Origin: an uncultured Lachnospiraceae bacterium
GTDB taxonomy: Bacteria > Bacillota > Clostridia > Lachnospirales > Lachnospiraceae
Assembly: GCA_947629545.1 (NCBI GenBank)
Contig: CANREE010000004.1
Coordinates: 1-55,716, forward strand
Length of the DNA stretch: 55,716 bases
Direction: 5' to 3'
Made by a program: the position numbers and the translations under genes. How positions within the stretch are numbered: position 1 is the stretch's first letter; each line of letters begins with the position of its first letter. The notes beneath the pieces were generated by a model that had not been told where the DNA came from, did not search any database, and saw only the letters and a program-made list of their open reading frames with translations. This document shows positions 23,361 through 43,576 of this stretch, one piece after another.

Positions 23361-24107
23361 ATGACGCGCGAGGAAGTATTGACCTACGTGAAGGAACAAT
23401 ATGATACCGAACCGGATTATCCGTGGCGCGGCGACCCAGACAGCGCCGTCCTGCGCCATGGGGACAGCCGCAAATGGTACGGGCTCCTGATGTATGTGAG
23501 CCGCCGCAGGCTGGGGCTTGCGGATCCGGAGCCGGCGGACATCCTGAATCTGAAATGCGATCCGGCCATGGGAGACATCCTGCGGGCGGAGCCCGGCATT
23601 TTCCCGGCCTACCATATGAGCCATACGGAGTGGATCTCTGTTCTTTTAGACGGAACCGTTCCGCGGGACCGGGTTTTGGATCTGATCGACATAAGCTACG
23701 CGATCACGGCTTCGAAGAAGAAAAAGGAGCGGCTGCGCGGCCCGGTGGACTGGATCATCCCGGCCAATCCGAAATATTACGATGTAGAGGCCGGATTTCA
23801 GGAGAATCCCGTGATGGAGTGGAAACAGACTGCCGATATCAGGGCGGGCGATACGATTTACATGTACATGGCCGCCCCAGTCTGCGCGGTTCTCTATAAA
23901 TGCAGAGCCGTGGAAGTGAATCTTCCGTATCATTACGAGGATGAGAACCTGACGATCAAAAAGGCCATGAAGATCGAGCTTCTGGAGCGCTACGCGCCGG
24001 ACCGCTTCACCCGCGAGTTTCTGCGGGGGTTCGGCGTCTACGCGGTCCGCAGCCAGCGGAAGATCCCGCATAGTCTGAGCTGTGAGATGAGCGGGCAGCC
24101 TTCTTAA
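23361..24107 (+). CDS. MmcQ/YjbR-family protein with a PUA/EVE-like C-terminal domain
   Basis: 248 residues. The first ~115 residues (MTREEVLTYVKEQYDTEPDYPWRGDPDSAVLRH... KWYGLLMYVSRRRLG) are the MmcQ/YjbR fold, named for a DNA-binding-like structure of uncertain role. The rest (VDWIIPANPKYYDVEAGFQEN... WKQTADIRAGDTIYMYMAAPVCAVLYKCRAVEV) resembles EVE/ASCH-type PUA domains that read modified bases. The start at 23361 is preceded by AGGAAG with a seven-base gap. A frame to 23301 exists but lacks support. Its 3' end overlaps the convergent kinase gene by four bases. Confidence 0.75.
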   Translation: MTREEVLTYVKEQYDTEPDYPWRGDPDSAVLRHGDSRKWYGLLMYVSRRRLGLADPEPADILNLKCDPAMGDILRAEPGIFPAYHMSHTEWISVLLDGTVPRDRVLDLIDISYAITASKKKKERLRGPVDWIIPANPKYYDVEAGFQENPVMEWKQTADIRAGDTIYMYMAAPVCAVLYKCRAVEVNLPYHYEDENLTIKKAMKIELLERYAPDRFTREFLRGFGVYAVRSQRKIPHSLSCEMSGQPS

Positions 24108-26146
24108 AAGAGAAATTCATTGTCCGGATAGATCCGGTCGATCTCCTCGCGCTGCTCGGGCGAGCAGACAATGTTGTTCAGCCGCGGGAGCCGGTCGAGC
24201 CCCTGATAGTTTATGACGTCAGCCCCGTGTATCTCCAGCCTGGTCAGGTTGGGAATGGCGTCAAGATTTGAGAAATCATTGATTTTCATACCTGCCAGCG
24301 CGATATGCCACACGCGCGGCAGGTTATTATTTTCTCCCATTTCGAATAACGACTCACCGTCTCCCCAGATACCCAGGTATTCCAGATTCTCCAGCCCCTG
24401 AATGTCTTCCAGCTTCAGGTTGTGGGAATAGTAGAAGGTGAGGGAGGTCAGCGGCAGGCCGTTCAGCTCGCTTAAGATATTGCTGTCCAGCCGCTTCAGG
24501 AACAGGGAGTAGAGGTTGGGCAGGGCGCGAAGCTCGCTGTAGTCCGTAAGCTCGATCAGAGACACATCCAGGGTGACGACAGGACCGCCCGCCAGTTCCC
24601 GGATGGAAGTGATACCCCCGCAGTTGCTGATATTCAGCTCGTTCAGATTCGGCAGCGTGGCGACGGAAGCGAGGTTTGTGATCGGCAGATCCGGAATCAT
24701 CAGCGTCCGGATGCTGGGATTGTTCTCCAGCGGTGAAAGATCCGTAAGCGGATTGTAGCCGAGGCCCAGGTAGGAGATCCGCGTACCCTCAAGCAGGGAG
24801 ATATCGTCGATATTCTGGTTATAAAGGCATAAGGTGTGCAGGGAAGGCATATGCACGATGTCTTCCAGCGAGGAAATGGGGCCGCTCTGCAGGAATTTTC
24901 CGCTTTCCTGCGTCCATTCGTCGTAGAACCTGGGGGTATCTCCCCTGAGCCACAGATAGCTGTCATCTACATAGATCTCCAGCCCCATAATATGGATCGA
25001 CGTGATTTGGGCCAGTTCGCCCAGCGTCAGGTCCCTGTCCCAGACCTGCAGCTGCCTGCGGACCGCCTCCTCGATCAGCGGTTCTGTAAAATGGTAGATC
25101 TGGTTCGGATCCGCATCCGCCGCGTCTGTCGTCAGCGGGTCGCCGGAAAGGGCGTCTGCCTGTCCGGAACCGGGCAGCCGAAGGCCGCCGTTTTGCGCGG
25201 AATACAGGATCAAAACAGAGAGTACCAGCACGGCCGCGGCAGGCAGCGCGGCGAGCCAGGCAGGGATCCGTCGTCTCCAGAAAGGAACAGAGTTGTTCCC
25301 AGCGCGGTCCTGCTCCTGCCGCAGAAAGGAATACTGCGCCTCCAGAAGATCCTTCTGGAACTCCTGCACGGACTGGTAGCGTTTATCCGGGTCGAAGCGG
25401 GTAGCCTTTTCAATGATCGGGCGCAGCTGGGCATCGGTCTCGCCGAGGCATTGCTCCGTCGTCTGATACTCGCCGGTCAGACAGTAGAGCAGAAGGATGC
25501 CCAGGGAATAAACGTCGCTCCGCGCGTCGGTCCTCTTAAAGCCGAACTGTTCCGGGGGCGCCGTAAGCTGTGTGCCCATGACCAGGGTGTCGCTGTCCTT
25601 GCTGGTGTCAAAATGTCTGGAAATGCCCAGGTCGATGAAATGGCAGACGCCTTTCGCGTCCACGACTACGTTCTGCGGTTTGATATCCCGGTGGATAATG
25701 CTGGGCTTCATGGAATGGAGAAACGACAGAAGCTCGGTCAGCTGGATCATATAGTGGAAGACCTGCCGTATGGGCAGCCCCGGTTTTTCTTTGCAGGATT
25801 CGCATAATTCTTCCAGCGTGCTGCCCGGAATATAGCTGCGCAGGTACCACGCGCGTTCTTCCCCGGTCCGGAAGCGGCAGATCACGGGAAAGGTATCCGC
25901 CAGCTCCCTGCGCGGCGAGTTGTGGATATCCTGCAGGATCGCCTGTTCATTTGCAAGGATCCGCATGGAAACTGGGTCGGAGGCAGTCTTAAAGATCATC
26001 TGCCGCCCGCTGTCTTTTTCGGCCACCAGGTAGGTTGCGTAGCCGTCCTCCCGCCGGAGGCAGGAGCAGACGCGGTACTGTCCTTTCAGATCTTCCGGCA
26101 GCTCCGTTTCATAGGATGGTTCTTCAAATTTCGGTATATCTGACAT
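24104..26146 (-). CDS. Membrane serine/threonine protein kinase with leucine-rich repeats
   Basis: 680 residues. The kinase domain is about 20-275, with probable ATP lysine K53 (MIFKTAS), αC glutamate in ANEQAIL, catalytic loop HRDIKPQN (H151), IDLG in place of DFG, and APPEQFG activation segment. The glycine-rich loop is degenerate. A membrane helix (WLAALPAAAVLVLSVLILYSA) sits near 293-315. A linker and an external region of SDS22/internalin-like leucine-rich repeats follow from about 400 to the end (NLNELNISNC, NLYSLFLKRL, NLTRLEIHG). The layout suggests an outside sensor and inside kinase. It is transcribed after the HTH gene and diverges from the Hsp70/AAA run. No phosphatase gene is adjacent. 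Confidence 0.9.
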   Translation of the reverse strand: MSDIPKFEEPSYETELPEDLKGQYRVCSCLRREDGYATYLVAEKDSGRQMIFKTASDPVSMRILANEQAILQDIHNSPRRELADTFPVICRFRTGEERAWYLRSYIPGSTLEELCESCKEKPGLPIRQVFHYMIQLTELLSFLHSMKPSIIHRDIKPQNVVVDAKGVCHFIDLGISRHFDTSKDSDTLVMGTQLTAPPEQFGFKRTDARSDVYSLGILLLYCLTGEYQTTEQCLGETDAQLRPIIEKATRFDPDKRYQSVQEFQKDLLEAQYSFLRQEQDRAGNNSVPFWRRRIPAWLAALPAAAVLVLSVLILYSAQNGGLRLPGSGQADALSGDPLTTDAADADPNQIYHFTEPLIEEAVRRQLQVWDRDLTLGELAQITSIHIMGLEIYVDDSYLWLRGDTPRFYDEWTQESGKFLQSGPISSLEDIVHMPSLHTLCLYNQNIDDISLLEGTRISYLGLGYNPLTDLSPLENNPSIRTLMIPDLPITNLASVATLPNLNELNISNCGGITSIRELAGGPVVTLDVSLIELTDYSELRALPNLYSLFLKRLDSNILSELNGLPLTSLTFYYSHNLKLEDIQGLENLEYLGIWGDGESLFEMGENNNLPRVWHIALAGMKINDFSNLDAIPNLTRLEIHGADVINYQGLDRLPRLNNIVCSPEQREEIDRIYPDNEFLF

Positions 26147-26205
26147 ACAATCTCAATCTCCTGTTGCCGTACCGGCAGATCGCATCCGCCGCGTCCCGGC
26201 GCGCC

Positions 26206-26652
26206 CTATTCGTCCTGATAAAGGGGCGCTTCGTTCAACTCCTTTAAAAATTCATTGGTCTGCCGCATGGTATACCCATTTTCAATGCAGAAAATAATTC
26301 CCGCGTCCCGCCGCACCTTAGCATAGAGGGAACCGAGGGCGGCCAGCCGCAGCAGCTGGTTGGTCTCTGAAAGGCTGGCGTCGATACAGAGGCTGATCCG
26401 CAGAAGCATATTCCTGGAGGGCGTCTTCTGACCGCTCAGGATATGGTAGAAGTAGGAACGCTCGATGCCGCTTCGCCGGATCACTTCTTTCGCGTTGACC
26501 TGGTGATGCTCCATGAGCTCATACAGATACTGGCAGAAATCCGGGGGCTGTTCCATATTTCCCAGGGCATCCTCCACGACCGTAAAATGCTTGGACCGCC
26601 GGATAAGCGACAAAAGCTGCGTGGTGGTCAGGCGTTTCTTCTGTTCGTTCAT
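26206..26652 (-). CDS. Helix-turn-helix (XRE-like) protein upstream of the kinase
   Basis: 148 residues. The centre (YLYELMEHHQVNAKEVIRRSGIERSYFYHILSGQKTPSRNMLLRISLCIDASLSETNQLLRLA) is an XRE-like helix-turn-helix with the long LL-R-I-S-L and E-x-x-x-LL helices. The same layout occurs in the HTH-like domain attached to some macrodomain proteins. The frame is open to 26778, but MNEQKKRL at 26652 has GGGAGGT seven bases upstream. It is the first gene of a two-gene unit with the kinase (60-base gap). It may be a transcription factor or a kinase substrate. Confidence 0.75.
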   Translation of the reverse strand: MNEQKKRLTTTQLLSLIRRSKHFTVVEDALGNMEQPPDFCQYLYELMEHHQVNAKEVIRRSGIERSYFYHILSGQKTPSRNMLLRISLCIDASLSETNQLLRLAALGSLYAKVRRDAGIIFCIENGYTMRQTNEFLKELNEAPLYQDE

Positions 26653-26896
26653 CCGGTGTACCTCCCTGTAAATTTTCCATATGATTTGACGATCACAGCC
26701 AATTTCATCCGCAGACGGCGTTCCGCCCGCAGTTTTGTCTGGTATTTTCAGTATATAATAGAATGTTTTAAAAAACAATCTTATATCCGCGGGAGATGAA
26801 AAAAGTCTTCTGTCAGAACACCAAAATATAAGAGTGATGTGCTATCGTAAAAATAGTAAGCAGTTGCTTCCGGCATCGGAAAAGGGGGGAGAAAGC

Positions 26897-27475
26897 TTGA
26901 AAGACCTTCGGATAAAAATTCTGCTTGATGAGTCCATCGCCAGGCGGGGAGCAGCGGCGGCGGACAAGATTTCCCGGTCGATGCTTGCGGACATCGATGA
27001 GAAGATAAAAGAGTATTCCGACGTGAAAACGGAAGGGAAAAATCCGGCGCTCTATGACGATGTGACCGCGTATATCCTGCGTCTTGGCGATCCGCGGTTT
27101 TTGCGGAAGAACGGGACGATCCGGGAGGCGAGATTCTACAGTTACGCCTATATTGACAAATCCACCTGGAGCGAGATGAAATGGGGGCTTGTGGCCACCA
27201 GCAAGAAGACGATTCTGAAGCTGATTATCGCCTTAAAGCTGGATGAGGACGAGGCTGTCCGGCTTCTTCGGAAAGGGCGGAGCGATTTTGACCAGAGCGA
27301 TCCCCAGGACCAGGTTGTGCTGGCCATGATCGACGTGCGGAAGGCAGGTTTTGATATCACTGTGGACGACGCGGTGGAAATTCTTGATTATTACAGTTTA
27401 AACGGCAAGAGATCCTTTGTGAGCATCTACGAGATTCCCGGTTCTTCCGCCCGGAAAAAGGACAGCAGGATATAG
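26897..27475 (+). CDS. HTH-like protein of unknown function, divergent from the kinase unit
   Basis: About 193 residues beginning at a TTG codon (26897), chosen because GGGGGGAG lies just upstream. The GTG/ATG at 26834-26837 has no ribosome binding site. The N-terminal half is basic and unrecognised. Residues ~90-170 (FYSYAYIDKSTWSEMKWGLVATSKKTILKLIIALKLDEDEAVRLLRKG) have the same five-helix pattern as the protein at 26206-26652, resembling the HTH-like module of macrodomain proteins. It lies alone between the divergent kinase unit and the membrane-protein operon. Possible paralogous regulator. Confidence refers mainly to it being a gene. Confidence 0.7.
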   Translation: MKDLRIKILLDESIARRGAAAADKISRSMLADIDEKIKEYSDVKTEGKNPALYDDVTAYILRLGDPRFLRKNGTIREARFYSYAYIDKSTWSEMKWGLVATSKKTILKLIIALKLDEDEAVRLLRKGRSDFDQSDPQDQVVLAMIDVRKAGFDITVDDAVEILDYYSLNGKRSFVSIYEIPGSSARKKDSRI

Positions 27476-27533
27476 ATTTTCTTCATGCGGCGGACGGGGG
27501 GCGGAAGGGAGAAACAAACGGCCGGAGCCGCAA

Positions 27534-27581
27534 AACTTCTGCCGGCGGCATGATGAAATGCGGCCGGGAAAGTGATAAGGT
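27534..27581 (+). promoter_or_regulatory. Shared regulatory element, copy 1, before the membrane-protein/Hsp70/AAA operon
   Basis: AACTTCTGCCGGCGGCA, one base (T), then GATGAAA (27534-27558). It contains the perfect 11-base dyad TGCCG-G-CGGCA (27540-27550). ATGAAA (27553-27558) followed 17 bases later by TAAGGT (27576-27581) could be a weak promoter with the dyad at the activator position. The next gene starts 73 bases after the element. Copy 2 is at 36395-36419. Confidence 0.6.
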
Positions 27582-27630
27582 ATATCCATAACAAAGCCGG
27601 AAACCGGCGATCATTAAGGAGGAAAAAAGA

Positions 27631-28767
27631 ATGAAGAATCTTACGAACGAGCAGCTTGAAGGACTGAAGAACAGGGAGACAGCCTACATCGCCGCGCTTG
27701 AGGGCGGAGAAGACGTCCGTACCGTGCTGGCACGGATCTATGTGGAGAATCTTGACGACAAGACCGAGAAGCAGGGACTTCTCATCGCGGATACGATCCT
27801 TAAAAGCGTCCGCGGGTTTGACGCCGATTATGCCGAGGCCAGGACGGATGTGGACCGGTATGTGGACAAGCTGATGAAGCGGATTGACGGAGACAGGAGC
27901 TGTGCGGAGAGATGCGAATACTGGCTGAAGCTCAGCGCCGGTATTGCGGCCGCGGCCAGCGCGGCAGGCGGCGAAGCGGTGGACCGGGAGGCGGTTATCG
28001 CAGAGCTTGGCGCACTGTCTGTCCCGGAAGGCGAGGCGACGCCGGAGCTGGAGGAGAAGCTGCGCGCCCAGGCGAAGGAAGCCCTGATGAAATCAGGCGT
28101 GCTGCTGGGCTCTCTGGCGGAGCAGGCGGAGGCGCTTGCCGGTATGGATACCGCCGAGGAGGCTGCGGAGCTTCTCATAAACATCGGAAGCCGTGATGTG
28201 GAGTACAGGGCCATCCTCTCCATGCTGGCCTATACCGATATTATCAGCGGCGTGTATGAAGATATGCCTGTGAACATGGGCGCCGCTCAGGTGGCCGCTG
28301 TTGTCTGCGCTCAGATCGAGCAGGCGCGGATCCTTGAGGCCGTCGGGAACGGTTCCCTGGCCGTTGATCTGGCTGTTGCGGCCCTGACCGTGCTGGGCAT
28401 CGTTTTGCTGGCGAATCTCTGCATTACGGCTGCCTTTGCGGCTATCAGCGCGGTCTCCGTATTTTCCGTTATTCTGGCCATTCCCGCCGCGTTCATGGTG
28501 GGAGTCCTGACGGCGAAGGCATTTCTGGTCGCCGCCGATGAATGGGCGAAGCTTGCCGAGGCTATCGTGAAATTCTCGGCGGCCGCCGTAAGGACCGTGA
28601 TGCAGGGTGCCAGGACGGCCGCCGAATATGCAGACCGGAACATTATCCCGAAGGTTGCCGCGCTCGCGGCGGATATGCTGGAGAAGCTCCGCTCATTTGT
28701 CCATACCGGCCAGAAGGCGGAGACAGTGGAGGATGAGGAGGAGATCGTCGCGGCCCCTGCCCAGTAA
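27631..28767 (+). CDS. Predicted membrane protein of unknown function
   Basis: 378 residues, not recognised. The first ~200 residues are acidic and helical. Residues ~245-305 are strongly hydrophobic (LAVDLAVAALTVLGIVLLANLCITAAFAAISAVSVFSVILAIPAAFMVGVL), enough for two membrane helices. An amphipathic helix and an acidic tail (VEDEEEIVAAPAQ) follow. TAAGGAGG precedes the ATG. It heads a same-strand run to 36371 with gaps mostly under 60 bases. It could anchor the Hsp70-like and AAA+ partners at the membrane (inference). Confidence 0.75.
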   Translation: MKNLTNEQLEGLKNRETAYIAALEGGEDVRTVLARIYVENLDDKTEKQGLLIADTILKSVRGFDADYAEARTDVDRYVDKLMKRIDGDRSCAERCEYWLKLSAGIAAAASAAGGEAVDREAVIAELGALSVPEGEATPELEEKLRAQAKEALMKSGVLLGSLAEQAEALAGMDTAEEAAELLINIGSRDVEYRAILSMLAYTDIISGVYEDMPVNMGAAQVAAVVCAQIEQARILEAVGNGSLAVDLAVAALTVLGIVLLANLCITAAFAAISAVSVFSVILAIPAAFMVGVLTAKAFLVAADEWAKLAEAIVKFSAAAVRTVMQGARTAAEYADRNIIPKVAALAADMLEKLRSFVHTGQKAETVEDEEEIVAAPAQ

Positions 28768-28787: not shown

Positions 28788-30092
28788 ATGAGAACGCTTC
28801 TTAGGATAAACGGAGAGCGGATCCTGAATTTTATGGATCTGCGGGAAAATTTTTCACCGGCGGAGCTTTATGGCCAGCTTGCAGATTTCCGGCGGTTCGC
28901 GGCGGTACACTGTGTGCCGCTGGGAATCTGCTATACCGATTCCGATACGCAGGAGCTGTATATAGCCCGGTATGTGACGAAGGAATTTTGGTACAGCCTG
29001 CTTGGGAGAAGCCAGTGGCCCGACCAAACGGCGCCGGCACAGCTTCTCGATGCGCTGGTAAAGGAGCTGGTGCCGCAGCGGGAGTCTGCCGGGGAAGAAG
29101 CCGGCACCCCGGAGCAGGACATCGCCGGGGAGGCGGCCGACGGATTTCTGTATGAGAAGCTGGAGGCGATCGTCCGGGGAGGCGTACAGGATGCGGTGAG
29201 AGCCGTGCTTATGCTGGCCATAAGCGAGCTTTCCGAGGTGGACGCCAGGACGGTCCGGTCCGGGGAGTGGCAGGAAAATGACATCCCGAGCCGGCCGGAG
29301 GGCTTCGGCTATGTGGACGAAGCCCCTCTTGCCGTGTCTAAAATTCCATACCGTTTTCTCTGCCGCGGCGGCGGTGCCCTCAAGCCGGGGGAGCGTATAC
29401 GGACGGTGCGGATTGCCGCCAAGGCAGGCCGCAGCGGAAAATTTGCCACGGTGGAACTGTGGCCCGACGGCGCCTCTTCGCCGGTGCTGACACAGAAACT
29501 TGCGCCGGGCGAATACCGGTACTGCAGCGCTGTGGGAGACAGGATCATCTGTTTCCTTCCGTCCCTGTGCGTTAGCGATGACCTGTGCGCTTTCCGGGCC
29601 GGTTATTCGGGGCAGACGATACGCGTGAAGCCCCAAAACGGCGAGGAATGGGAGCTGAGGGAGGACGGCATCACTTCCATGTCCGCCGGAAGCGGCGGAA
29701 GAGGGATGCTGTTTGTACAGAACGGACGGCTGAATTTCGCCTTTTTCCGGGACGCGGAGGATTCTTTCAGCCGGTTTGTGCTTGAGAGCATCACGAAACC
29801 GGCCGTGGAGGTCCGGGTGACCGAGGGCGGTTTCGAGGTGCTTTTAGAGGATGGAACGACGGCTGCCGGCGGAGACGTGCTTCCGAGAACGGGCGTGTTG
29901 TCCTTAAGCGGCGGGGGGCAGGGCTTCGGCCTTAAGGTGCTGGGAGAGAAGGATGCGGGCGAGTGCGCTTTATCTTTAAGCGGCAGGAGCGCCGCGGTTC
30001 TTTCCGGCGGGGGCAGGTGCCGCGCGGCGTTCGGCGGCGGATTTACCCTGGAAAATACGGAAGGCGGCGGTAAGGGCATCCGGTTCACATAG
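28788..30092 (+). CDS. Protein of unknown function, beta-rich C-terminus
   Basis: 434 residues, not recognised. Residues 1-130 are mixed alpha/beta with a charged linker. Residues ~165-434 are rich in short glycine-bounded strands (ITSMSAGSGGRGMLFVQNGRLNFAFFRD, TGVLSLSGGGQGFGLKVLG), suggesting a repetitive beta fold such as a propeller or sandwich. No signal peptide or membrane helix. It sits 20 bases after the membrane-protein gene and 126 before the next. I cannot assign a reaction. Confidence 0.7.
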   Translation: MRTLLRINGERILNFMDLRENFSPAELYGQLADFRRFAAVHCVPLGICYTDSDTQELYIARYVTKEFWYSLLGRSQWPDQTAPAQLLDALVKELVPQRESAGEEAGTPEQDIAGEAADGFLYEKLEAIVRGGVQDAVRAVLMLAISELSEVDARTVRSGEWQENDIPSRPEGFGYVDEAPLAVSKIPYRFLCRGGGALKPGERIRTVRIAAKAGRSGKFATVELWPDGASSPVLTQKLAPGEYRYCSAVGDRIICFLPSLCVSDDLCAFRAGYSGQTIRVKPQNGEEWELREDGITSMSAGSGGRGMLFVQNGRLNFAFFRDAEDSFSRFVLESITKPAVEVRVTEGGFEVLLEDGTTAAGGDVLPRTGVLSLSGGGQGFGLKVLGEKDAGECALSLSGRSAAVLSGGGRCRAAFGGGFTLENTEGGGKGIRFT

Positions 30093-30218
30093 GAGCCGGT
30101 TTTTGTAAAAGCCGCGGCGTCTGGCGTCCCGTGCGGAAAAATGTGTCGGAAAACGAACCGCTGCCGGCGCAGAATGCCGCATTCAGGATGCAGTCCAATC
30201 GGAAGGGAGGCAGATTTT

Positions 30219-31133
30219 TTGAACAGATATATAGGCCGGCTGAATTCCCTTAAGGGAAGAAGCGGCACTCTGCGGGAGAAAGGACCAGCGGCAGCCGGGC
30301 GGCAGGAGATCGCCCAGCTTTCGGAACAGCTGGAGTATATGGAGGATTTTCTGAGCCAGAACCTTTGCAGGCCCGGGAGCTCTATGGCCCGGCTCAGCGA
30401 AGCGCTGGAGAACGGTTACCGGCTGTGGGCCGGTATGGCAGGGCGGGTACCGCAGAATGCGGCGGCCAAGGCGGTTATCGCCGCATTTGACCAGAGCGGA
30501 GGCGTCCGTGATCTGATCGAGGAGCAGCGGCGGTTTGCCGATGAGGCAGAAGGTTTTTCTGACGGAAGCGAGGCCTGCAGGCTGGGCTACAACAGCCATA
30601 TGTTCTATCTGCGCAGCGAGACAGAAAAGCTTGTGACCGACCGGAAGCGGATATTGGACGCTTCTGCGGAGATTCCCCGGGGAGCGGAGGGAAATGCCAG
30701 GTTCATCGGGGAGGAGTGCCAGCATGTGGCGGCCGTCTGCGATATCCCCAAACGATGGTACGACGGAGGAAAGCTTCTGGAAGATATGCGGGCGGGCAAG
30801 CCCATGACCCAGTCCCAGTGGCGCCGGTTCGGGGAGGTATTTCAGGCCGTTGATCTTCTTCGCAGCGATCCGGCCGCTGCCGCTGAGGAGATTGACCAGC
30901 TCTGCGCGGGGCTCCGCATCCGGATGGACGCCATGGACGCCAATATCCGCAGGGGAAGTGTCCTGTACGATTTTCTGGCGAAATATCTGACGGAAGCGTG
31001 GTTTAGCACCTTCGACCCGGACTCGCCGTCCTGCGGGATGGCCGGTATGACTGCCGGGGAAGTGGGGGAGTTCTACCGGACGCAGACGGAAGAACTGACG
31101 GCTCATCTGCCTGCCAGGGGCAGCGCCGGATAA
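30219..31133 (+). CDS. Helical protein of unknown function
   Basis: About 304 residues from a TTG start at 30219, preceded by GGAAGGGAGG with an eight-base gap. The frame is open to 30141 without a better site. Mostly alpha-helical with coiled-coil tendency (EIAQLSEQLEYMEDFLSQN, EEIDQLCAGLRIRMDAMDANIRRG). No catalytic motif seen. It lies directly before the Hsp70-like gene, so it could be a co-chaperone or nucleotide-exchange-like partner, but this is only a positional guess. Confidence 0.68.
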   Translation: MNRYIGRLNSLKGRSGTLREKGPAAAGRQEIAQLSEQLEYMEDFLSQNLCRPGSSMARLSEALENGYRLWAGMAGRVPQNAAAKAVIAAFDQSGGVRDLIEEQRRFADEAEGFSDGSEACRLGYNSHMFYLRSETEKLVTDRKRILDASAEIPRGAEGNARFIGEECQHVAAVCDIPKRWYDGGKLLEDMRAGKPMTQSQWRRFGEVFQAVDLLRSDPAAAAEEIDQLCAGLRIRMDAMDANIRRGSVLYDFLAKYLTEAWFSTFDPDSPSCGMAGMTAGEVGEFYRTQTEELTAHLPARGSAG

Positions 31134-35967: not shown

Positions 35968-36371
35968 AAGTGACATTCAGTGAATATAAGGAATATATGC
36001 AGGGCGACGGATACGCGGAGCGGGAGATTACAAGGATTTTCCGCGCGTTTAAGGCCATGGACGGCCAGAGCCGTTCCTGGCTGGTCTGGTGGATTGTGGC
36101 CCGACGTCTTCCGAAGGATGAGATCGAGGGCATCACGGCGCGTTACCTGATCGAGGAGCGGGGCTTTAAGCCGGTCAACGCATTTATCATCATGGACTGG
36201 CTCAAGAGCGAGCCGGAGACGGCGAAGTATTTTCTGCTGAAGACGGAGACCGACGCCAATATCGGAGAGAAGGCGGTCAGGGAGCTGGAAAAGCTCATGC
36301 CGGCGGTTCAGACGCAGTCTGCGCCCGGGTCTTCCGGGCCGGAGGCGGACGAATCCCTCGGCGACAGCTGA
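35964..36371 (+). CDS. Small helical protein of unknown function
   Basis: 135 residues from a GTG that overlaps the metallopeptidase stop (GTGA). Helical and charged (FSEYKEYMQGDGYAEREITRIFRAFKAMDGQSRSWLVWWIVARRLPKDEIEGI), with a tryptophan-rich patch and a disordered tail (QTQSAPGSSGPEADESLGDS). No known domain recognised. It is the last gene of the first run; the second copy of the shared element follows at 36395. Translation coupling suggests it works with the peptidase, perhaps as an adaptor. Confidence 0.7.
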   Translation: MKVTFSEYKEYMQGDGYAEREITRIFRAFKAMDGQSRSWLVWWIVARRLPKDEIEGITARYLIEERGFKPVNAFIIMDWLKSEPETAKYFLLKTETDANIGEKAVRELEKLMPAVQTQSAPGSSGPEADESLGDS

Positions 36372-36497: not shown

Positions 36498-36722
36498 ATG
36501 GACAGAAAAGAGAACACGGCCAGTAATTTTTTCAGGGAGAGAGGCGGCGGAAGAAAAATGACCGTCAGCACCCGGAAGGAGACGACGCTGGCCGCCATAG
36601 AGCACAGTATCAACGTCCGGAAAGCGCTGCGGAACCGGGCCGGCCGCGGGATGTTCGGGGACTTTCAGGACGGTCCCCAAACGATTCCGGAAGGGAAAAA
36701 GAAAGGGGGTTGCGGCAGATGA
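36498..36722 (+). CDS. Small basic protein of unknown function
   Basis: 74 residues, strongly basic (MDRKENTASNFFRERGGGRK... VRKALRNRAGRG... GKKKGGCGR). GGGAGG seven bases upstream selects ATG 36498 over GTG 36492. Its TGA overlaps the ATG of the next gene (ATGA). No known domain. It could be a leader or nucleic-acid-binding peptide. Coding status rests on its ribosome binding site and tight coupling. Confidence 0.55.
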   Translation: MDRKENTASNFFRERGGGRKMTVSTRKETTLAAIEHSINVRKALRNRAGRGMFGDFQDGPQTIPEGKKKGGCGR

Positions 36723-37507
36723 ACCGGGCAGTATTTGACACATTTTACACGGACAAACCGATTCTCGGCATGCTCCATCTGAACGGAGAATCGCCGGAGG
36801 CGGTGGACGAGTGGGCCAGACGGGAGATCGCCCAGATGTATGAGAACGGCGTGGATGCCGTTCTGGTCGAGAATTATTTCGGAAATACAGACGATGTGGA
36901 GCGTATGCTCCGGTACCTTCAGAAAGAGTATCCCCAAAAGGTGTACGGCGTCAATGTTCTCGGCAATCCCCGGCTGGGCTTTGAGCTGGCTGCGCGGTAC
37001 GGCGCGGCATTTCTGCAGATGGATTCCGTCTGCGGCCATTTACGGCCGGGAAAAAGGGCGGAGGCCGGCGTAGGACCGGGCCATTATTATGGAATGTATG
37101 ACAGCGACTTCGCGGACTGGCTGGCAGGGCTTCGGGCGCGGTTCCCCGTATTCCTGCTTGGCGGCGTCCGGTTTAAGTACCAGCCGGTCAACTCCGGGCG
37201 CAGCGTCGAGGAGGATCTGGCGATCGGAAAGGAGCGCTGCGACGCCGTTGTCGTGACCGGCGCCGGCACCGGGATCGAGACGGATATGGAGAAGATCCGG
37301 CAGTTCCGCAGCGCGCTGGGGGATTTCCCGCTGTTTGTCGGCGCAGGGATGACGGAGGAGACCTGCGAGGAGCAGCTTTCCGCCGCGGACGGCGCCATCG
37401 TAGGAAGCTGGTTCAAGGCGGGCGGCGTGACGTCCGCTCCCGTAGACCCTGCGCGCGTGCGGCGCTTTATGGATGCGGTGAAACGGGTGAGGGCAGCTCA
37501 GCCGTAA
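36719..37507 (+). CDS. BtpA/SgcQ-family TIM-barrel protein
   Basis: 262 residues of the BtpA family, a TIM-barrel group named from a cyanobacterial photosystem I biogenesis factor but widespread in non-photosynthetic bacteria with unclear roles. Seen: ILGMLHLNGE at the N-terminus, YENGVDAVLVENYFGN, VYGVNVLGN, DAVVVTGAGTGIETD and GAIVGSWFKAGG, the ordered strand ends of the barrel. GGGGG sits nine bases before ATG 36719. It overlaps the upstream small gene by four bases and precedes the VWA gene by 23. The substrate, possibly a nucleotide or sugar phosphate, is unknown. Confidence 0.83.
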   Translation: MNRAVFDTFYTDKPILGMLHLNGESPEAVDEWARREIAQMYENGVDAVLVENYFGNTDDVERMLRYLQKEYPQKVYGVNVLGNPRLGFELAARYGAAFLQMDSVCGHLRPGKRAEAGVGPGHYYGMYDSDFADWLAGLRARFPVFLLGGVRFKYQPVNSGRSVEEDLAIGKERCDAVVVTGAGTGIETDMEKIRQFRSALGDFPLFVGAGMTEETCEEQLSAADGAIVGSWFKAGGVTSAPVDPARVRRFMDAVKRVRAAQP

Positions 37508-37530
37508 TTCGGAGAATGGAGGAATTTGAA

Positions 37531-38175
37531 ATGAAAAAGGATTTAACGGAGCTTGTGTTTATTCTTGACCGCAGCGGCTCAATGCAGTCACTGGAAAGCG
37601 ACACCATCGGCGGTTACAACAGCTTCCTGGAGAGGCAGAAGGCCGAGCCGGGCGAGGTGATCGTCACGACGGTGCTGTTCGACGACAAGTATGAGATCCT
37701 GCATGATCACGTGGATCTGAAAAAGGTTGCGCCGATCACGAAAAAAGAGTATTATGCAAGGGGAATGACGGCGCTTCTGGACGCGGTGGGAAAGACCGTT
37801 ACAGAGGTGGAACACCGCCAGAACTTTATGCCGGAGGCGGAAACGCCGGCGAACACGATGGTGGTCATCATCACGGACGGGCTGGAGAACGCCAGCCATG
37901 AATTCAGTCTCAGCACGGTCCGCCAGATGATCACGGCGCAGCAGGAAAAGCACGGCTGGGAATTCATTTTCCTGGGCGCTAATATGGATGCGGTGAAAGT
38001 CGCCGGAGGTCTCGGTATCAGCGCGGACAGGGCCGTGAATTACCGGCCGGACGCGGTGGGAACGGCGACGAATTTTGACGCGTTGGGCCAGGCCGCGTCC
38101 GCTGTGAGAGGCCACGGAAACGTGGGCAGCAGTTGGCGCGGAAAGATTGACAAAGATTATAACGAGAGAAAATAG
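37531..38175 (+). CDS. VWA-domain protein with intact MIDAS
   Basis: 214 residues, essentially one von Willebrand A domain: LVFILDRSGSM (MIDAS DxSxS at D13, S15, S17), a MIDAS threonine in RGMTALLDA and an acidic VVIITDGLENAS loop. It has no signal peptide, so it is cytoplasmic. GGAGGAA places the start at ATG 37531 rather than 37516. Cytoplasmic VWA proteins act as metal-dependent adaptors for AAA+ ATPases, kinases and RNA-binding complexes (TerY, Ro60 and MoxR partners). Here it lies between the AAA+ run and the RNA repair genes. Confidence 0.88.
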   Translation: MKKDLTELVFILDRSGSMQSLESDTIGGYNSFLERQKAEPGEVIVTTVLFDDKYEILHDHVDLKKVAPITKKEYYARGMTALLDAVGKTVTEVEHRQNFMPEAETPANTMVVIITDGLENASHEFSLSTVRQMITAQQEKHGWEFIFLGANMDAVKVAGGLGISADRAVNYRPDAVGTATNFDALGQAASAVRGHGNVGSSWRGKIDKDYNERK

Positions 38176-38186
38176 AGGGCGCGCAG

Positions 38187-39176
38187 ATGCTTGAATTGCC
38201 GGAAGTGACGGACACATCCGGCGGAAGAAAGGAGAAAAGCCCTGTGACTTTGAAGGAAACGCTTGATTATGAGATCGCCTGGCAGGAGAGGATCGCCGCC
38301 ATTCCCGGGGAGAAGATGAAAGCTTACCTTGAGCGGGAATTTACAAAGCTCCCGATCCTGACGCAGGCCATGCTGGAACCTGATCTCCCGTGGGAGTTCC
38401 GGCCGGAGTCTCTGGAGATCGACAGCTATACTGCGAACCAGATTTTCTGTTTTCTGGGTTATCCGGCTAAGAAATACGGCGGCAACTGCCAGGCCCTGGC
38501 CGATCGGTACGGCGAGAACCATCAGGAGGCTTGGCGGTTGTATCAGGCGCATAAAATACGCATTGCGGAGGTCAAAAAAGAGGGCGAAGATGCGCAAAAG
38601 GCTGCCTCTGAGGAATACATGGCGCATTATCGGACCCTGACGGAAGAACAGCGCCCGATCGCGAATTACGCGATGGCCAGGCAGGTTTCGCCCGGGAGCA
38701 CGAGCGGATTCCATTTCAGGCCGTCTTCTCCGTCTGTATGGCCTTTCAGCTATTATAGCTGGGCGGACACGAAGCCGGTGCCGGGCGTAGCTTTTTCCAT
38801 AGGCCGTGCCTGCTTTGCCGGAAGGGATCCGTTATTGTTTTATGCTTTAAATGACTACGAGAAGATTTCCAGAGGCACGCCGCTGGAAAAGGCCGTTTTC
38901 CAGACGGGAGACGGGTGGCTTCAAAAGGTATATCCAACCATCGAAGGATATTCCAGCGGGATTCGGACGGTGGGCTTTTTGGGAGGTATCATCCTGTTCC
39001 GGCTGGATGAGGAGAAGATTCGCAGGCTCGACATCTTTTACAGCGTGCCGAAGGAGGAGAAACAGGAGGATTATATTTTTACCTGGCCGGGGGCCGGGGA
39101 GTTTTCGTGTATACTGGGGGAGATTGTTGACGGTAAACTGATCCCTCTGTATCTTGATGATTTTGTCATGAAATGA
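38187..39176 (+). CDS. Protein of unknown function
   Basis: 329 residues, not recognised. The N-terminal ~180 residues are helical and charged, while the rest has tryptophan/tyrosine-rich strands (PFSYYSWADTKPVPGVAFSIG, DYIFTWPGAGEFSCILGEIVDGKLIPLYLDDF). Start ATG 38187 has GAGGG upstream, but GTG 38244 with AAAGGAG is also credible and would remove 19 residues. It lies 11 bases after the VWA gene, so it belongs to the same unit. Confidence 0.68.
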   Translation: MLELPEVTDTSGGRKEKSPVTLKETLDYEIAWQERIAAIPGEKMKAYLEREFTKLPILTQAMLEPDLPWEFRPESLEIDSYTANQIFCFLGYPAKKYGGNCQALADRYGENHQEAWRLYQAHKIRIAEVKKEGEDAQKAASEEYMAHYRTLTEEQRPIANYAMARQVSPGSTSGFHFRPSSPSVWPFSYYSWADTKPVPGVAFSIGRACFAGRDPLLFYALNDYEKISRGTPLEKAVFQTGDGWLQKVYPTIEGYSSGIRTVGFLGGIILFRLDEEKIRRLDIFYSVPKEEKQEDYIFTWPGAGEFSCILGEIVDGKLIPLYLDDFVMK

Positions 39177-39235: not shown

Positions 39236-40759
39236 GTGTGGCAATGGCAGTTTAAGAGTCTGGCAGAGCGTGCCGGCATGGGGGATATAAAGGCCATGTT
39301 GCGGCTCGGGGAATCGTTCCGGGGAGAGCTTCCTGCGGCCTATCTGCGTCTGGAGGCGGAGTGGGAAGAAAATCCCGGGCAGAAAGAGGACGAACTGGCG
39401 GATTATCTCGAAAACCACGGGGCGGATGCGTTTAACGCGCGCGCGGGGATCCTGTGGTATCTGCGCGCGGCGGCCTATGGAAGCGCCCCGGCAGAGGAGA
39501 TCGCGGCGGCGCATCCCGGATGGGGGAGGCTTTCGCTGCTTCCGGAGAAGTTTTTCATCCCCGGACAGGATTTCCGCGTCAGTATCCGGGGAAGCGAGCT
39601 AAGGAAGGCCGGCCTGCTGAATATGAAGGCGGAACAGGAGTATTCGATCCGTTCGCTGGATGAGGACGGCATCTTTTATGCGGAGACCTATCATGGTTAT
39701 GAGGGGCCGGATGAGGACGGCTTCGGGATGGAAGAACTCTATGATTTTTACGCGTTTGACGAATTCTTCAACTGCCTCGGCTGCCTGAAGGGATACTCGA
39801 ATCTGGACTATCGGAACAATGAAGAGCGTTTCCTGCGCGAAATCCGGACAGCCGGGGAGAACTACCGGCGTCAGCGGGAAGAATACTGGAGGAGCACAAA
39901 AGCGGGGAGCGATTCCGAACGCTGCAAATGGCTTCTTGCCGGGCATAAAGTCGTCACGATCCGAAACGGCGTGCTGGTTTCCTTCAGGGAAGACGGGCCG
40001 GGCTATACGATCCCGGAGCAGGTGTCCGCGATCGGCGCGAACGCATTTTCCGGCAATGATACGCTTGAGGAGATTCTTGTTCCGGCGCAGGTCGGAAGCA
40101 TCGCCGGTTTTGCGTTCAGCTCCTGCAAAAGTCTGCGGAAACTCATTCTGCCGGACCATCTGACCGCGCTGGGAAGCGGGCTTTGCATGGACTGCCGCCG
40201 GCTCGAGGAGATCCATCTGCCGGAGATGCTTGAGGAGATTCCCGCCCGTATGTTCCAGTTCGGGAGTGCGTTAAAGCGGATCCGGCTGCCGGAGGGGCTG
40301 AAGCGGATCGGGGACGAGGCGTTTTCCTACAGCGGGCTGCAGGAGATCACATTGCCGGATGGGGCCGCGCTGGGCAGGAAAGCATTTGCGGGTTCTGAGC
40401 TGCGCGCGATCCGCATCCCCGGGAATGCGAAGCTGGGCGAGGCGGCATTCTGGTTCTGTCAGGAGCTTGAGGAGGCCGTGCTTGAGGAAGGGATCACCGG
40501 GCTTCCCGGCAAGATTTTTGCAAACTGCAGCAGACTGCAATCCGTACGCCTGCCGGCGTCGCTTCGGGTGATCGGAAGCTGCGCGCTGGACAGCAGGAGC
40601 TTAAAGAGGGTTGAGATCCCGGAACAAGTGCAGGAGATCGCATACGGCGCATTTTCCGGGAACACGGTCCTGTATGGGAAGGCGGGAACAGCGGCGGAGC
40701 GCTATGCCGCGGAAAACGGCCTGCGGTTCGTGAATAATGCTTCGGCCGGCCGCGGATGA
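39236..40759 (+). CDS. BspA-type leucine-rich repeat protein (LRR_5)
   Basis: 507 residues from a GTG start with GAGGGGG eight bases upstream. The first ~245 residues are acidic and unrecognised. From about 255 there are tandem 22-24-residue repeats of the LRR_5 type (AIGANAFSGNDTLEEILVPAQVGSIAGFAFSSCKSLRKLILP...), ending TAAERYAAENGLRFV, the usual BspA terminus. There is no signal peptide or membrane helix, so it is probably cytoplasmic, unlike most BspA surface proteins. A protein-binding role fits its place beside VWA and RNA repair genes. Confidence 0.83.
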   Translation: MWQWQFKSLAERAGMGDIKAMLRLGESFRGELPAAYLRLEAEWEENPGQKEDELADYLENHGADAFNARAGILWYLRAAAYGSAPAEEIAAAHPGWGRLSLLPEKFFIPGQDFRVSIRGSELRKAGLLNMKAEQEYSIRSLDEDGIFYAETYHGYEGPDEDGFGMEELYDFYAFDEFFNCLGCLKGYSNLDYRNNEERFLREIRTAGENYRRQREEYWRSTKAGSDSERCKWLLAGHKVVTIRNGVLVSFREDGPGYTIPEQVSAIGANAFSGNDTLEEILVPAQVGSIAGFAFSSCKSLRKLILPDHLTALGSGLCMDCRRLEEIHLPEMLEEIPARMFQFGSALKRIRLPEGLKRIGDEAFSYSGLQEITLPDGAALGRKAFAGSELRAIRIPGNAKLGEAAFWFCQELEEAVLEEGITGLPGKIFANCSRLQSVRLPASLRVIGSCALDSRSLKRVEIPEQVQEIAYGAFSGNTVLYGKAGTAAERYAAENGLRFVNNASAGRG

Positions 40760-40831
40760 GGAGAAATCCATACTTGGGGCTGACTTGGTTATGAAGCGAA
40801 GAGAAGGGAAGAGAAGAGGCGGAAACGCAGC

Positions 40832-41533
40832 GTGGGCAGTTTGGATGAGCGATATGATAAAATGACCGCGGCGGCCTGGATCCTGGGCCATGCGCGCGGT
40901 ACCGGCGTGCCGGAACTTCCGGCTGCAGTCAGGGACAAAACGGCCGGTGAATGTTCGGGGGAGGAGATCGACCGGATTTTTGCCGCGGGGCAGGCGGCGG
41001 GTCTGAAGCTGTATCCGTTTAAGGCGGGCGTGCAGGTTCTGGCGCGCACACGCCGGACTATGGGCTTTCTGCGCTCCGTTCCCTTCGAGACGATGCTGGA
41101 CGTGGGCAGCGGGCGCGGCGTCTTCCTGATTCCGTTCATGAAAGAATTTCCGTGGGTGCGCGTGACGTCCCTCGACCTCCTTGAAAAGCGGGTGACATTC
41201 TTAAATGAGCTGGCGGACGGCGGCTTCGGACAGCTTCGCGCGCTGCAGAAGGACATCTGTGAGCAGCCGTTTGCGGACGGCAGCTTCGACGTGGTCACGA
41301 TGCTGGAGGTGCTGGAACATATCCCGGATGCGGAGAGGGCGGTGAAGGCGGCCGTACGTATGGCGAAGCGATATGTTGTCGTCACCGTTCCGTCGAAACC
41401 GGACGATAACCCGGAGCATATCCATCTGCTGACGAAGGAGAAGCTGACGCGGATGTTTTATGACGCGGGATGGACGCGGCTGCATTTTGACGGCGTGGAG
41501 GGACATCTGTTTCTGGTGGCGGCTGCGTGTTAA
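40832..41533 (+). CDS. Class I SAM-dependent methyltransferase
   Basis: 233 residues from a GTG start with GAGGCGG upstream. Rossmann methyltransferase motifs: MLDVGSGRGVFLIPFMKEF (motif I, near residue 88), VTSLDLLEKRV (motif II), ALQKDICEQPFADGSFDVVTMLEVLEHI (post I to IV), VVVTVPSKPDDNPEHIH. It is of the Methyltransf_11 kind with unknown substrate. It is not Hen1, the RNA 3'-end methyltransferase tied to other bacterial RNA repair operons, because the Hen1 metal-binding EExxHxxH pattern is absent. It lies 47 bases before the RNA ligase. Confidence 0.85.
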   Translation: MGSLDERYDKMTAAAWILGHARGTGVPELPAAVRDKTAGECSGEEIDRIFAAGQAAGLKLYPFKAGVQVLARTRRTMGFLRSVPFETMLDVGSGRGVFLIPFMKEFPWVRVTSLDLLEKRVTFLNELADGGFGQLRALQKDICEQPFADGSFDVVTMLEVLEHIPDAERAVKAAVRMAKRYVVVTVPSKPDDNPEHIHLLTKEKLTRMFYDAGWTRLHFDGVEGHLFLVAAAC

Positions 41534-41580
41534 GCCGCGGTCTGCGGCTGCCGTGAATGAACGGTAAGAGGTGAGTGAAA

Positions 41581-42375
41581 ATGAATCCGTTTGCGATACG
41601 CAAATACCCCCGGACGCCGCATCTTGAGGGCTCCCGCCTTCAGCCCGGTGACGAGGATCTGAGTCAGATTCCGTTTGAGGCGGTCCGCGGGAGACATCTG
41701 GTTGTCGAGGAGAAATGCGACGGCGCGAATTCCGCCATTTCCTTCGACGCAGACGGCGGGCTTCTGCTGCAGAGCCGCGGGCATTATCTGACGGGCGGGG
41801 AGCGGGAGCGCCATTACAGCCTGATGAAGCAGTGGGCCACGGTTCACCGTGACGCTTTTTATGAGCTTCTCGGGACACGGTATATCATGTACGGCGAATG
41901 GCTCTACGCGAAGCACACGGTATTCTACGACGCGCTGCCGCATTATTTCCTGGAATTCGATATTCTGGACCGTGAGACGGGGATTTTTCTGGACACGCCG
42001 ACCAGACAGCGGATGCTTGCGGGCTTTCCGGCCGTGTCCGTTCCGGTGCTGGGCGAAGGCCGGTATGAAAGCAGAGAACAGCTGCTTAAACTTCTGGGGC
42101 AGTCCCGGTATGTGACCGGAAACCAGAGACGGAGTCTGTATGAGGCGGCCGTAAAGCTGGGTCTGGATCCGGAGAGAGCCTGCGCGGAGACGGAGCTTTC
42201 CGGGATGATGGAGGGGCTTTATATCAAGGTTGAAGAAGACGGGCAGGTGGCTGAGCGGATGAAATTCGTGCGGGCCGCTTTTTTGCAGTACGTGGATTTC
42301 TCGGAGACCCACTGGCTCGATAAGCCGATTATTCCCAATCAGCTCGACGGCCCGGTGGAGCGGTTGTTCGCATGA
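41581..42375 (+). CDS. RNA ligase (Rnl2-like nucleotidyltransferase fold)
   Basis: 264 residues. Seals RNA 5'-phosphate to 3'-hydroxyl ends through a lysyl-AMP intermediate. Motif I is VVEEKCDGANSA, with the adenylated lysine near K45. Motif III-like YIMYGEWLYAKHTVFYDALPHYFLEFDIL, motif IV EGLYIKVEE and motif V ERMKFVR follow. GAGGTGA six bases upstream selects ATG 41581. The length is that of a bare catalytic core without added domains. The end-processing partner follows 16 bases later, so the pair can heal and seal broken RNA. Confidence 0.88.
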   Translation: MNPFAIRKYPRTPHLEGSRLQPGDEDLSQIPFEAVRGRHLVVEEKCDGANSAISFDADGGLLLQSRGHYLTGGERERHYSLMKQWATVHRDAFYELLGTRYIMYGEWLYAKHTVFYDALPHYFLEFDILDRETGIFLDTPTRQRMLAGFPAVSVPVLGEGRYESREQLLKLLGQSRYVTGNQRRSLYEAAVKLGLDPERACAETELSGMMEGLYIKVEEDGQVAERMKFVRAAFLQYVDFSETHWLDKPIIPNQLDGPVERLFA

Positions 42376-42391
42376 GACGGGAGGCAGGCAG

Positions 42392-43576
42392 ATGAAAGAC
42401 GCGGCACCGGATTTTATCCGGGAATTTCAGGAATGTGTTCCGAACGGCCCGACGGATGAAATTGACTGGGACAGAATCGGGCGGCTGCTCGCCCCGGCCG
42501 GCTTTACGGCGATGAAAGAGACGCCGCAGAATCCGGTTTTCCATGGCGAGGGCGACGTATACAGGCATACGCAGCTGGTCTGCCGGAAACTGCTTTTAAA
42601 TCCGGGATTTTTCGGGCTTTCCTCCGGACGGAGAACGGCGCTTTTTCTGGCTGCGCTTCTTCATGATATCGGGAAGACGAAGACGACCCGCTGTGAAGGC
42701 GGCGTCTGGACTTCTCCGAATCATTCTGCGGCCGGCAGCCGGATCGTAAGGACGTTTCTGTGGCGGGACTGCGCGCTTTGCGGGACACCCGGTGCTATGG
42801 CGTTTCGGGAGGCGGTCTGCGCGCTGGTCAGATACCACATGCTGCCTGTGCATCTGGCAGAGAAAGAGGATGCGAGACGCCGCGTCCGGGAAATAGCCTG
42901 TATCGGCGAGCTTGCTGCCGGATTTACGCCGGATCTTCTGCTTGTGCTTGCGGAAGCGGACGTGAAGGGCCGGATCGCCGGCGATACCGCGGATCTTCTG
43001 GAACGGGTGCAGCTGGCGGGAATTCTTGCGGAAGAGGCCGGTTGTTTGGACCAGCCGTACCGTTTCGGCGACGCGTTTACAAAACGCGCATATCTGTCCG
43101 GCCGGAATGTGGATCCGGATCAGAAACTCTTTGACGCGTCCTGGGGCGAGGTGGTCATGCTGTCCGGCCTTCCGGGTACCGGCAAGGATACCTGGATCCG
43201 GGAGAACCTGCCGGGAATGCCCGTTGTTTCTTTGGATGAGATCAGAAAAACAAGAGGGATCGGACCGGCGGACAATCAGGGCGAAGTCGTTTGGGCGGCG
43301 CAGGAAGCGGCTAAGGCGTATCTCCGGAAAAAGCAGCCGTTTGTCTGGAATGCCACAGATACCGGGAGGGATACCAGGCAGAAACTGGTAACCCTTTTTG
43401 AACGGTACGGCGCGCGGGTGCGGATCATTTATCTGGAAACCGGTTTGAATGAGCGTATCCGCCGGAACGCGGGCCGGCCGGAACCGGTTCCGGAAGCCGT
43501 GGTCGGACGGATGCTGGAGCGGACGGTTCCGCCCATGCCGGACGAGGCGCAGACGGTGGAGTGGGTTTGTGTGTAG
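42392..43576 (+). CDS. HD-phosphohydrolase / polynucleotide kinase fusion (HD-Pnk type)
   Basis: 394 residues. The N-terminal HD domain has H in DVYRHTQLV (about 59), HD in AALLHDIGKTKTTR (H91, D92) and NHSAAGSRIV. The C-terminal P-loop kinase has GLPGTGKDTWIREN near 262, then VVSLDEIRKTRG. The layout matches HD-Pnk enzymes characterised from Runella, which remove 2',3'-cyclic or 2' phosphates from RNA ends and phosphorylate 5'-OH ends. With the ligase just upstream it forms a complete RNA repair pair. It is the last gene of the second run. Confidence 0.88.
   Translation: MKDAAPDFIREFQECVPNGPTDEIDWDRIGRLLAPAGFTAMKETPQNPVFHGEGDVYRHTQLVCRKLLLNPGFFGLSSGRRTALFLAALLHDIGKTKTTRCEGGVWTSPNHSAAGSRIVRTFLWRDCALCGTPGAMAFREAVCALVRYHMLPVHLAEKEDARRRVREIACIGELAAGFTPDLLLVLAEADVKGRIAGDTADLLERVQLAGILAEEAGCLDQPYRFGDAFTKRAYLSGRNVDPDQKLFDASWGEVVMLSGLPGTGKDTWIRENLPGMPVVSLDEIRKTRGIGPADNQGEVVWAAQEAAKAYLRKKQPFVWNATDTGRDTRQKLVTLFERYGARVRIIYLETGLNERIRRNAGRPEPVPEAVVGRMLERTVPPMPDEAQTVEWVCV

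Follow-up and report, generated by a model that had tools for sequence, protein, structure and literature searches.

A recurrent operon of an Hsp70-type ATPase, an AAA+ ATPase and a predicted zinc peptidase, often accompanied by RNA-repair genes, in an uncultured Lachnospiraceae bacterium

Here we describe a gene island in an uncultured Lachnospiraceae bacterium, carried by a 55,716-nucleotide stretch of DNA (contig C4 of an assembly with 162 contigs and a total of 2.95 Mb; hereafter the window), in which the eight genes at 26834-36371 (orf213, mem378, p434, p330, an Hsp70-like ATPase, an AAA+ ATPase, an HExxH peptidase and s135) form a conserved predicted operon. The second half of the island is a loose accessory set, of which a trio of methyltransferase, RNA ligase and HD/polynucleotide kinase (HD/Pnk) genes matters most. 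We tentatively propose, as a plausible rather than a probable reading of the sequence data, that the island encodes a horizontally exchanged protein machine, an NTPase-gated proteolytic switch anchored in the membrane and aided in recovery by RNA repair, whose most likely role would be defence against phages or toxins.

A profile of three Hsp70-like proteins, run against one genome per species, yielded 36 loci, each viewed with up to 10 kb of flank; L049, which duplicates L072, and L141, which overlaps L068, were dropped before counting. These comprise 15 clostridial carriers (L057-L069, L071, L072), from which four same-genus loci were kept apart, namely two copies of the block (L055, L056) and two with a different cassette, cassette B, described below (L073, L087). 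Bacteroidota, among which an Egerieousia locus is counted, contributed three loci with the AAA+ version (L070, L086, L089) and ten with a short version, in which Hsp70 is accompanied by a protein of about 900 residues in place of the AAA+ ATPase (L075-L083, L090). The remaining four are L084, L085, L088 and L074, the last being a Nitrospirota genome with a protein of about 900 residues and a weak peptidase match. Iterative profile searches of the 15 carriers recovered the AAA+ ATPase and p434 in all 15, mem378 and s135 in 14, the peptidase in 13, p330 in 11 and orf213 in 10, Hsp70 being present in 15 of 15 by construction of the scan; in L066 the sequence ends after the Hsp70 gene. Identities to the window in these carriers span 16-61% (p434, s135, peptidase, Hsp70), and gene orders vary, with AAA+ preceding Hsp70 in L065-L067 and mem378 behind s135 in L058, L065, L067 and L071, so that the gene set itself is conserved and not merely its order. 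Ratios of non-synonymous to synonymous divergence (dN/dS) against two same-genus genomes, G002 and G012, are mostly below 0.5, some genes having too few changes to judge (mem378 reaches 1.00 against G002, on very few changes); together with the recurrence of the gene set in other genomes, this indicates that the island is more than a chance assembly. An earlier note on this DNA, made from the sequence alone, had named co-occurrence of the Hsp70-like, AAA+ and peptidase proteins as the evidence to look for, and the block is indeed conserved in other genera and in a second phylum. Among the open-licence literature searched, no paper was recognised as describing this operon.

Within the gene set, the peptidase and s135 are a near-constant pair around which the NTPases are swapped. 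The two genes are adjacent (less than 200 bases apart on the same strand) in 27 of 31 peptidase-bearing loci, three same-genus copies included, and L081, one of the four misses, sits at a contig end. The ten short Bacteroidota loci have the peptidase in nine cases and s135 in eight, and the one Bacteroidota protein of about 900 residues that was scanned carries a HerA/DUF87 domain. L050 combines mem378, AAA+, peptidase and s135 with a DO-GTPase2 that scores 29.2 bits (cut-off 27); no Hsp70 was detected there. The constancy of the pair beside exchanged NTPases suggests a division of labour, with the pair as working end of the system and the NTPases as its trigger.

Several loci vary in other ways. 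The peptidase-s135 pair is tandemly duplicated in L059 (12119-14253); L063 (9986-19122) holds two Hsp70-like genes, the second beside a 601-aa gene; and a radical SAM/SPASM gene lies right behind mem378 in L067 (10220-11533), where L065 has a 430-aa gene in the matching place. Related AAA+ genes were also seen with a protein family of about 575 residues in six Lachnospiraceae loci (L042, L043, L045, L046, L048, L052), four of which add a family of 886-995 residues with HerA/DUF87 in the one member scanned; these are perhaps a second undescribed gene set. WG-repeat proteins lie close to a related AAA+ gene in L038 (10745-12742) and L040 (4661-7579).

As a single sequence, the Hsp70-like protein is recognised weakly (MreB, E 9e-5; HSP70, E 1e-3). 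A 26-sequence profile matches Hsp70 ATPase domains of solved structures with a best E of 7e-12, the predicted model matches Hsp70 in Foldseek at E 1e-10, and the nucleotide-site segments are conserved. The listed Hsp70 profile matches stop by position 395 and the model has no strand beyond residue 425; the protein is thus predicted to contain an Hsp70 ATPase domain and to lack the beta-sandwich substrate-binding domain. The peptidase reaches no family cut-off in Pfam. An alignment of 22 sequences shows conservation of HExxH and of a Q..E motif downstream of it, H150, E151 and H154 being invariant and E200, a putative zinc ligand, nearly so, and we predict a gluzincin-like HExxH zinc metallopeptidase. 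Comparison with solved structures gave two matches at E 0.002 to a clostridial-neurotoxin-like catalytic chain, over about 33 residues round HExxH; at E 0.08-0.1 two oligopeptidases followed. Kinship to either group was considered and set aside, the matches being read as the common zincin motif only. Hydrophobic segments occur at the N-terminus of 13 of 16 peptidases, in 17 of 17 mem378 proteins and in many Hsp70-like relatives, which would place the machine at the membrane. The AAA+ ATPase matches FtsH/Cdc48/PAN models and not MoxR. No match was found in PHROGs for orf213, p434, p330, Hsp70 or the peptidase. Eleven orf213 members were aligned, and Pfam searches with them returned five weak, unrelated names only; a relationship of orf213 to the neighbouring helix-turn-helix (HTH) protein was unsupported (hhalign probability 6%). 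For the fold of p434, a second analysis covered mainly residues 259-434.

The RNA ligase co-occurs with the core far above background. It was found in 13 of the 15 carrier genomes and in 0 of 13 other genomes of the same search, which took 28 of the 36 loci (L055, L056, L073, L079, L081, L083, L087 and L089 were left out). Background frequencies were 2/244 in genomes of the class, 9/297 in the family (10/298 before removal of G321, a core carrier with the same 47,316-base contig as L072) and 1/149 in the family of G745, that is, about 1-3%, with Fisher p values of 4e-18, 1e-15 and 2e-16, respectively. Among family genomes with a relative of the AAA+ ATPase and without the Hsp70 core, one of 16 (G308) has the ligase (p 6e-6), or one of 15 without G349 (p 1e-5), and ligases of at least 60% identity occur in 12/15 carriers vs 4/297, 1/244 and 1/149 control genomes. 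The earlier note had counted the ligase as part of the island, and this association bears it out. Core and ligase lie on one contig in G745, G747, G755 and, judged by its length of 45,992 bases, G749 (spacing about 20 kb). The core contig of G756 carries pnk residues 290-394 at its end and the ligase contig residues 23-282 at its own, a pattern that fits one gene split between contigs; no exact overlap of at least 16 bases was found between the contig ends. Every one of the 18 ligase loci compared has the HD/pnk gene next to the ligase, and 13 have a methyltransferase homologue; the window methyltransferase matches general S-adenosylmethionine (SAM) methyltransferases only, with no Hen1 assignment. 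The trio is probably an RNA-repair set.

The island is flanked by yjbR (23301) on the left and infC (44554) on the right, and begins with a kinase-HTH pair on the minus strand, followed by a same-strand gene run at 26834-43576. The block adjoins the same left-hand genes in three genomes of the genus, those of the window, G002 and G012. Synonymous divergence (dS) from G002 is 0.49 for infC, 0.28 for yjbR, 0.26 for the kinase and 0.40 for the HTH gene, vs 0.00-0.08 from orf213 through pnk, so that operon and trio have the appearance of a single block shared recently. From G012 it is 0.42 for yjbR, 0.18 for the kinase, 0.14 for the HTH gene, 0.03-0.08 for the operon and 0.12-0.14 for the trio. 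The kinase is present in seven of 26 genus genomes, and in G013 and G019, where the HTH gene also occurs, it adjoins different cassettes. In G013 (L016, 4728-15870, G013:C53) cassette B follows, with a 176-aa protein, an M48-like peptidase, a 563-aa protein, two dynamin-like GTPases, two smaller genes, a distant Hsp70-like gene and the start of p329 at the contig end; in G019 (L111, 12881-16247, G019:C48) a similar cassette with a 582-aa protein begins after the kinase; and G001 retains remnants of cassette B, then p329 and the leucine-rich repeat (LRR) gene. The block is apparently movable and horizontally exchanged, the same site carrying another Hsp70/dynamin cassette in relatives, and the kinase and HTH gene are older residents of the exchange site. 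The kinase relay proposed in the earlier note is not supported: dS and the neighbours in G013 and G019 led us to reject the kinase as a system part, and within the 36 scan loci, with at most 10 kb of flank, a homologue was seen only in the same-genus L055 and L056.

G+C content is 0.56-0.61 in 28001-44000, vs 0.50-0.55 in 1-14000 and 0.52-0.55 in 44001-54000, and 0.56-0.58 is also reached at 14001-20000 and 22001-26000. A phage or plasmid origin was considered and rejected, as the Hsp70 query matched nothing in viral contigs (close relatives only), plasmids or phages and the AAA+ query found no relative in viral contigs; the ligase query matched only two phage records, at 26-31% identity. Scans of 26000-44600 returned 15 promoter and 27 terminator sites, vs 6.7 and 17.6 expected, and do not delimit the transcripts.

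In the accessory half, the von Willebrand factor A (VWA) protein, BtpA and p329 are optional, btpA being absent in G002 and p329 in G012. An in-frame 75-codon frame opens at 36495 ahead of the BtpA frame start near 36710, and in G002, without btpA, it is continuous with the VWA gene. Parts of the set recur elsewhere: in L135 the trio lies beside the core with LRR and BtpA genes, the BtpA homologue being on the core contig, and a weak p329 match, and in L136, likewise with the core, the trio is found with a VWA homologue adjoining the ligase. BspA-type LRR homologues lie near core or trio in L069, L131 and L135.

These observations can also be read as independent systems sharing a hotspot, the operon being one, the trio another, and LRR, VWA, BtpA and p329 passengers, with no joint mechanism; we regard this as possible though doubtful. 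A number of results weigh in its favour or otherwise against the proposed machine. Of the 13 ligase-bearing carriers, eight have ligase and core on different contigs, and two carriers, L059 and L063, lack the ligase altogether. Ligase carriers without the core exist: Hsp70 was found in 0 of 11 control ligase carriers (G914, from the 149-genome control, being left out), so the trio works elsewhere too. Within the genus, 13 of 25 other genomes have a ligase match, eight of these belonging to a subfamily of 50-56% identity, one in G001 being a 44-residue remnant and one in G013, which has cassette B, being 95% identical with an internal stop. The G013 ligase and the p329 and LRR genes beside cassette B in G001 indicate that the accessory half is not tied to the operon in the genus; it trails cassette B in G001 and probably in G013, and passenger genes come and go. 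Against G012, trio dS is about that of the HTH gene and the operon alone stands out, so the case for a joint recent transfer comes from G002. The peptidase was not detected in L064, membrane siting is hydropathy-based, and comparison of core proteins with PADLOC turned up nothing beyond shared kinase, AAA and HD-type matches. The ligase controls are unmatched for habitat, the carrier count includes the closely related L065 and L066, and carriers may generally be defence-rich, HsdR being present in 11/15 vs 26/54 non-carriers (p 0.07; 46 genomes of the family and eight of other families of the order, part of the controls). On the other hand, the ligase is in 13 of 15 carriers vs about 1-3% of the three control sets, HsdR rises only from 48% to 73%, and a common hotspot leaves unexplained those carriers in which trio and core are apart. 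The 50-56% ligase subfamily occurs in G003, G005, G007, G010, G011, G016, G022 and G024, where the core was not seen as far as searched.

The operon resembles known conflict systems without the components that define membership in them. As in IetAS, an AAA+ ATPase is coupled to a peptidase, and the AAA domain region scores 60.6 bits against IetA of PADLOC (NCBIfam IetA 51.9, cut-off 510). The IetAS protease is of subtilisin type, in contrast to the zinc peptidase of the window, which stands with Hsp70 and further subunits; no window protein matched peptidase S8 in Pfam. Dynamins recalling Eleos (LeoA/LeoBC dynamin-like GTPases) lie near the core in L058, L061, L062 and L065 and in cassette B, weak LeoA/LeoBC scores being obtained for the four dynamins scanned (in cassette B, for L016); unlike Eleos, the window has no dynamin.

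Kaur et al. 2020 (PMC7159879) describe GTPase-centric conflict systems (DO-GTPase/GAP1), one theme of which is HSP70; these share with the operon an NTPase switch with Hsp70, membrane components and exchangeable parts; with the pair as effector and the NTPase as trigger, the operon logic would be close to theirs. The HSP70 component is present as the Hsp70 ATPase domain and L050 has a DO-GTPase2, but the window has the AAA+ ATPase and the peptidase-s135 pair instead, and Pfam scans of 20 window proteins, with matches considered up to E 0.1, gave neither DO-GTPase nor GAP1. MoxR-vWA ternary systems (PMC7159879) likewise have an AAA+ ATPase and a VWA protein, as does the island; here, however, the AAA+ ATPase is of FtsH/Cdc48 type and the VWA gene lies outside the conserved operon. 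The VWA-AAA+ pairing that the earlier note cited from other systems is not supported here. Several features of type III-A CoCoNuT operons with extensions (PMC11090510) recall the island: an Hsp70-like domain, HerA variants, a Cdc48-type AAA+ in which one domain is active, and VWA, LRR and kinase neighbours. They are defined by McrB and McrC, neither of which matched among the 20 window proteins, and the window differs in its separate zinc peptidase and RNA-repair trio. The trio itself is like Pnkp1-Rnl-Hen1 RNA repair (PMC4411300) in uniting a kinase/end-healing enzyme, an RNA ligase and a methyltransferase, with the RNA ligase (PF09414) and end-healing kinase (PF13671) both above cut-off; it is unlike it in that the healing enzyme has an HD domain, the methyltransferase has general SAM matches and the genes are mostly clustered.

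In the proposed machine, the Hsp70-type ATPase, p434 and mem378 would at rest hold the peptidase-s135 pair at the membrane in an inactive state. The propeller and Hsp70-like parts might bind a sign of invasion or damage, be it a foreign protein, a misfolded one or a disturbance of the membrane, whereupon the ATP-driven AAA+ ring would strip s135 from the peptidase, or feed the peptidase s135 or another protein. Cleavage could then halt growth or remove a protein of the intruder, and HD-Pnk would heal, and the ligase seal, RNA cut by an invader toxin or a host RNase, possibly with methylation, allowing survivors to recover; the most likely purpose would be defence against phages or competitor toxins. 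The broader claim of a new class of immune machine in Bacillota and Bacteroidota, with a fixed membrane-anchored zinc peptidase effector and small inhibitor-like partner, interchangeable NTPase triggers (Hsp70 with AAA+, Hsp70 with a HerA-type motor, DO-GTPase) and a dedicated clostridial RNA-repair trio that makes the response survivable, we hold to be unlikely. Still less likely is a protein quality-control or envelope-stress machine with no conflict role, in which Hsp70-type and AAA+ ATPases would pull damaged proteins out of the membrane and pass them to the zinc peptidase in the manner of FtsH. The FtsH/Cdc48 type of the AAA+, the hydrophobic segments of peptidase, mem378 and many Hsp70-like relatives, and the lack of a recognised toxin effector in Pfam and PADLOC scans of the window proteins speak for it, whereas housekeeping machines are rarely so patchy: Hsp70 at E of at most 0.001 occurs in six of 116 relatives (among them the source genome and only three others in the genus), mem378 is absent from the 390 other class genomes searched (the source genome alone of 391), and a different cassette is swapped in at one site.

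The features are listed in Table 1. The two same-strand gene runs described in the earlier note are present, and Pfam agrees with its LRR kinase, AAA+, BtpA, second LRR (BspA-type), methyltransferase, RNA ligase and HD-Pnk kinase (HD and AAA_33). Its Hsp70-like and HExxH calls hold by profile, model and motif alignment and are weak by single sequence and family cut-off, its VWA call stays weak, and the conserved gene set starts at orf213 (26834), ahead of the 27631 given there. Overall, it was right on there being a system, probably right on RNA repair and wrong on the kinase. The names Ycf46, HD-Pnk and MIDAS-type VWA are partly taken over from it.

Table 1. Genes of the island, with window coordinates, strand and supporting evidence.
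Feature	Position	Strand	Evidence or remark
Transmembrane Ser/Thr kinase with LRRs	24104..26146	-	PF00069 E 4e-21; resident beside exchange site, outside transferred block
HTH protein	26206..26778	-	Weak sub-cut-off HTH matches; resident with kinase
orf213, small conserved protein, operon gene 1	26834..27475	+	No Pfam match
mem378, membrane protein with hydrophobic hairpin	27631..28767	+	No Pfam match; hydropathy
p434, helical N-terminal part, beta-propeller-like C-terminal part	28788..30092	+	No Pfam match
p330, function not assigned	30141..31133	+	Sub-cut-off Pfam match only, E 0.03
Hsp70-type ATPase with helical C-terminal part	31181..33310	+	Profile, predicted model
AAA+ ATPase, FtsH/Cdc48 type	33357..35309	+	PF00004 E 4e-25
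HExxH zinc peptidase (predicted), hydrophobic N-terminus	35314..35967	+	Conserved motif in alignment
s135, small partner gene, 4-base overlap with peptidase gene	35964..36371	+	No Pfam match; adjacency
BtpA family protein, optional passenger	36710..37507	+	PF03437 E 2e-25
VWA protein, accessory	37516..38175	+	E 1e-4, under Pfam cut-off
p329, accessory, function not assigned	38187..39176	+	Recurs beside cassette B in G001, G013
BspA-type LRR protein, accessory	39236..40759	+	PF13306 E 1e-42
Class I SAM methyltransferase (trio)	40832..41533	+	Pfam E 4e-15
RNA ligase (trio)	41575..42375	+	PF09414 E 6e-33
HD + polynucleotide-kinase-like enzyme (trio)	42392..43576	+	PF01966 E 3e-6, PF13671 (AAA_33) E 4e-22

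Elsewhere in the window, a tRNA-Leu with anticodon AAG (45880-45965) lies just beyond the island, and a 6S RNA (11867-12047) and a ZMP/ZTP riboswitch (47056-47138) were observed.

The operon adds a conserved, cross-phylum gut gene set with families lacking a Pfam match (orf213, mem378, p434, s135), and suggests that an ATPase of the Hsp70 type can be a component of a machine dedicated to proteolysis. As a testable example of a proteolytic system that is often found with RNA repair, it bears on how cells may survive RNA damage of their own or foreign making.

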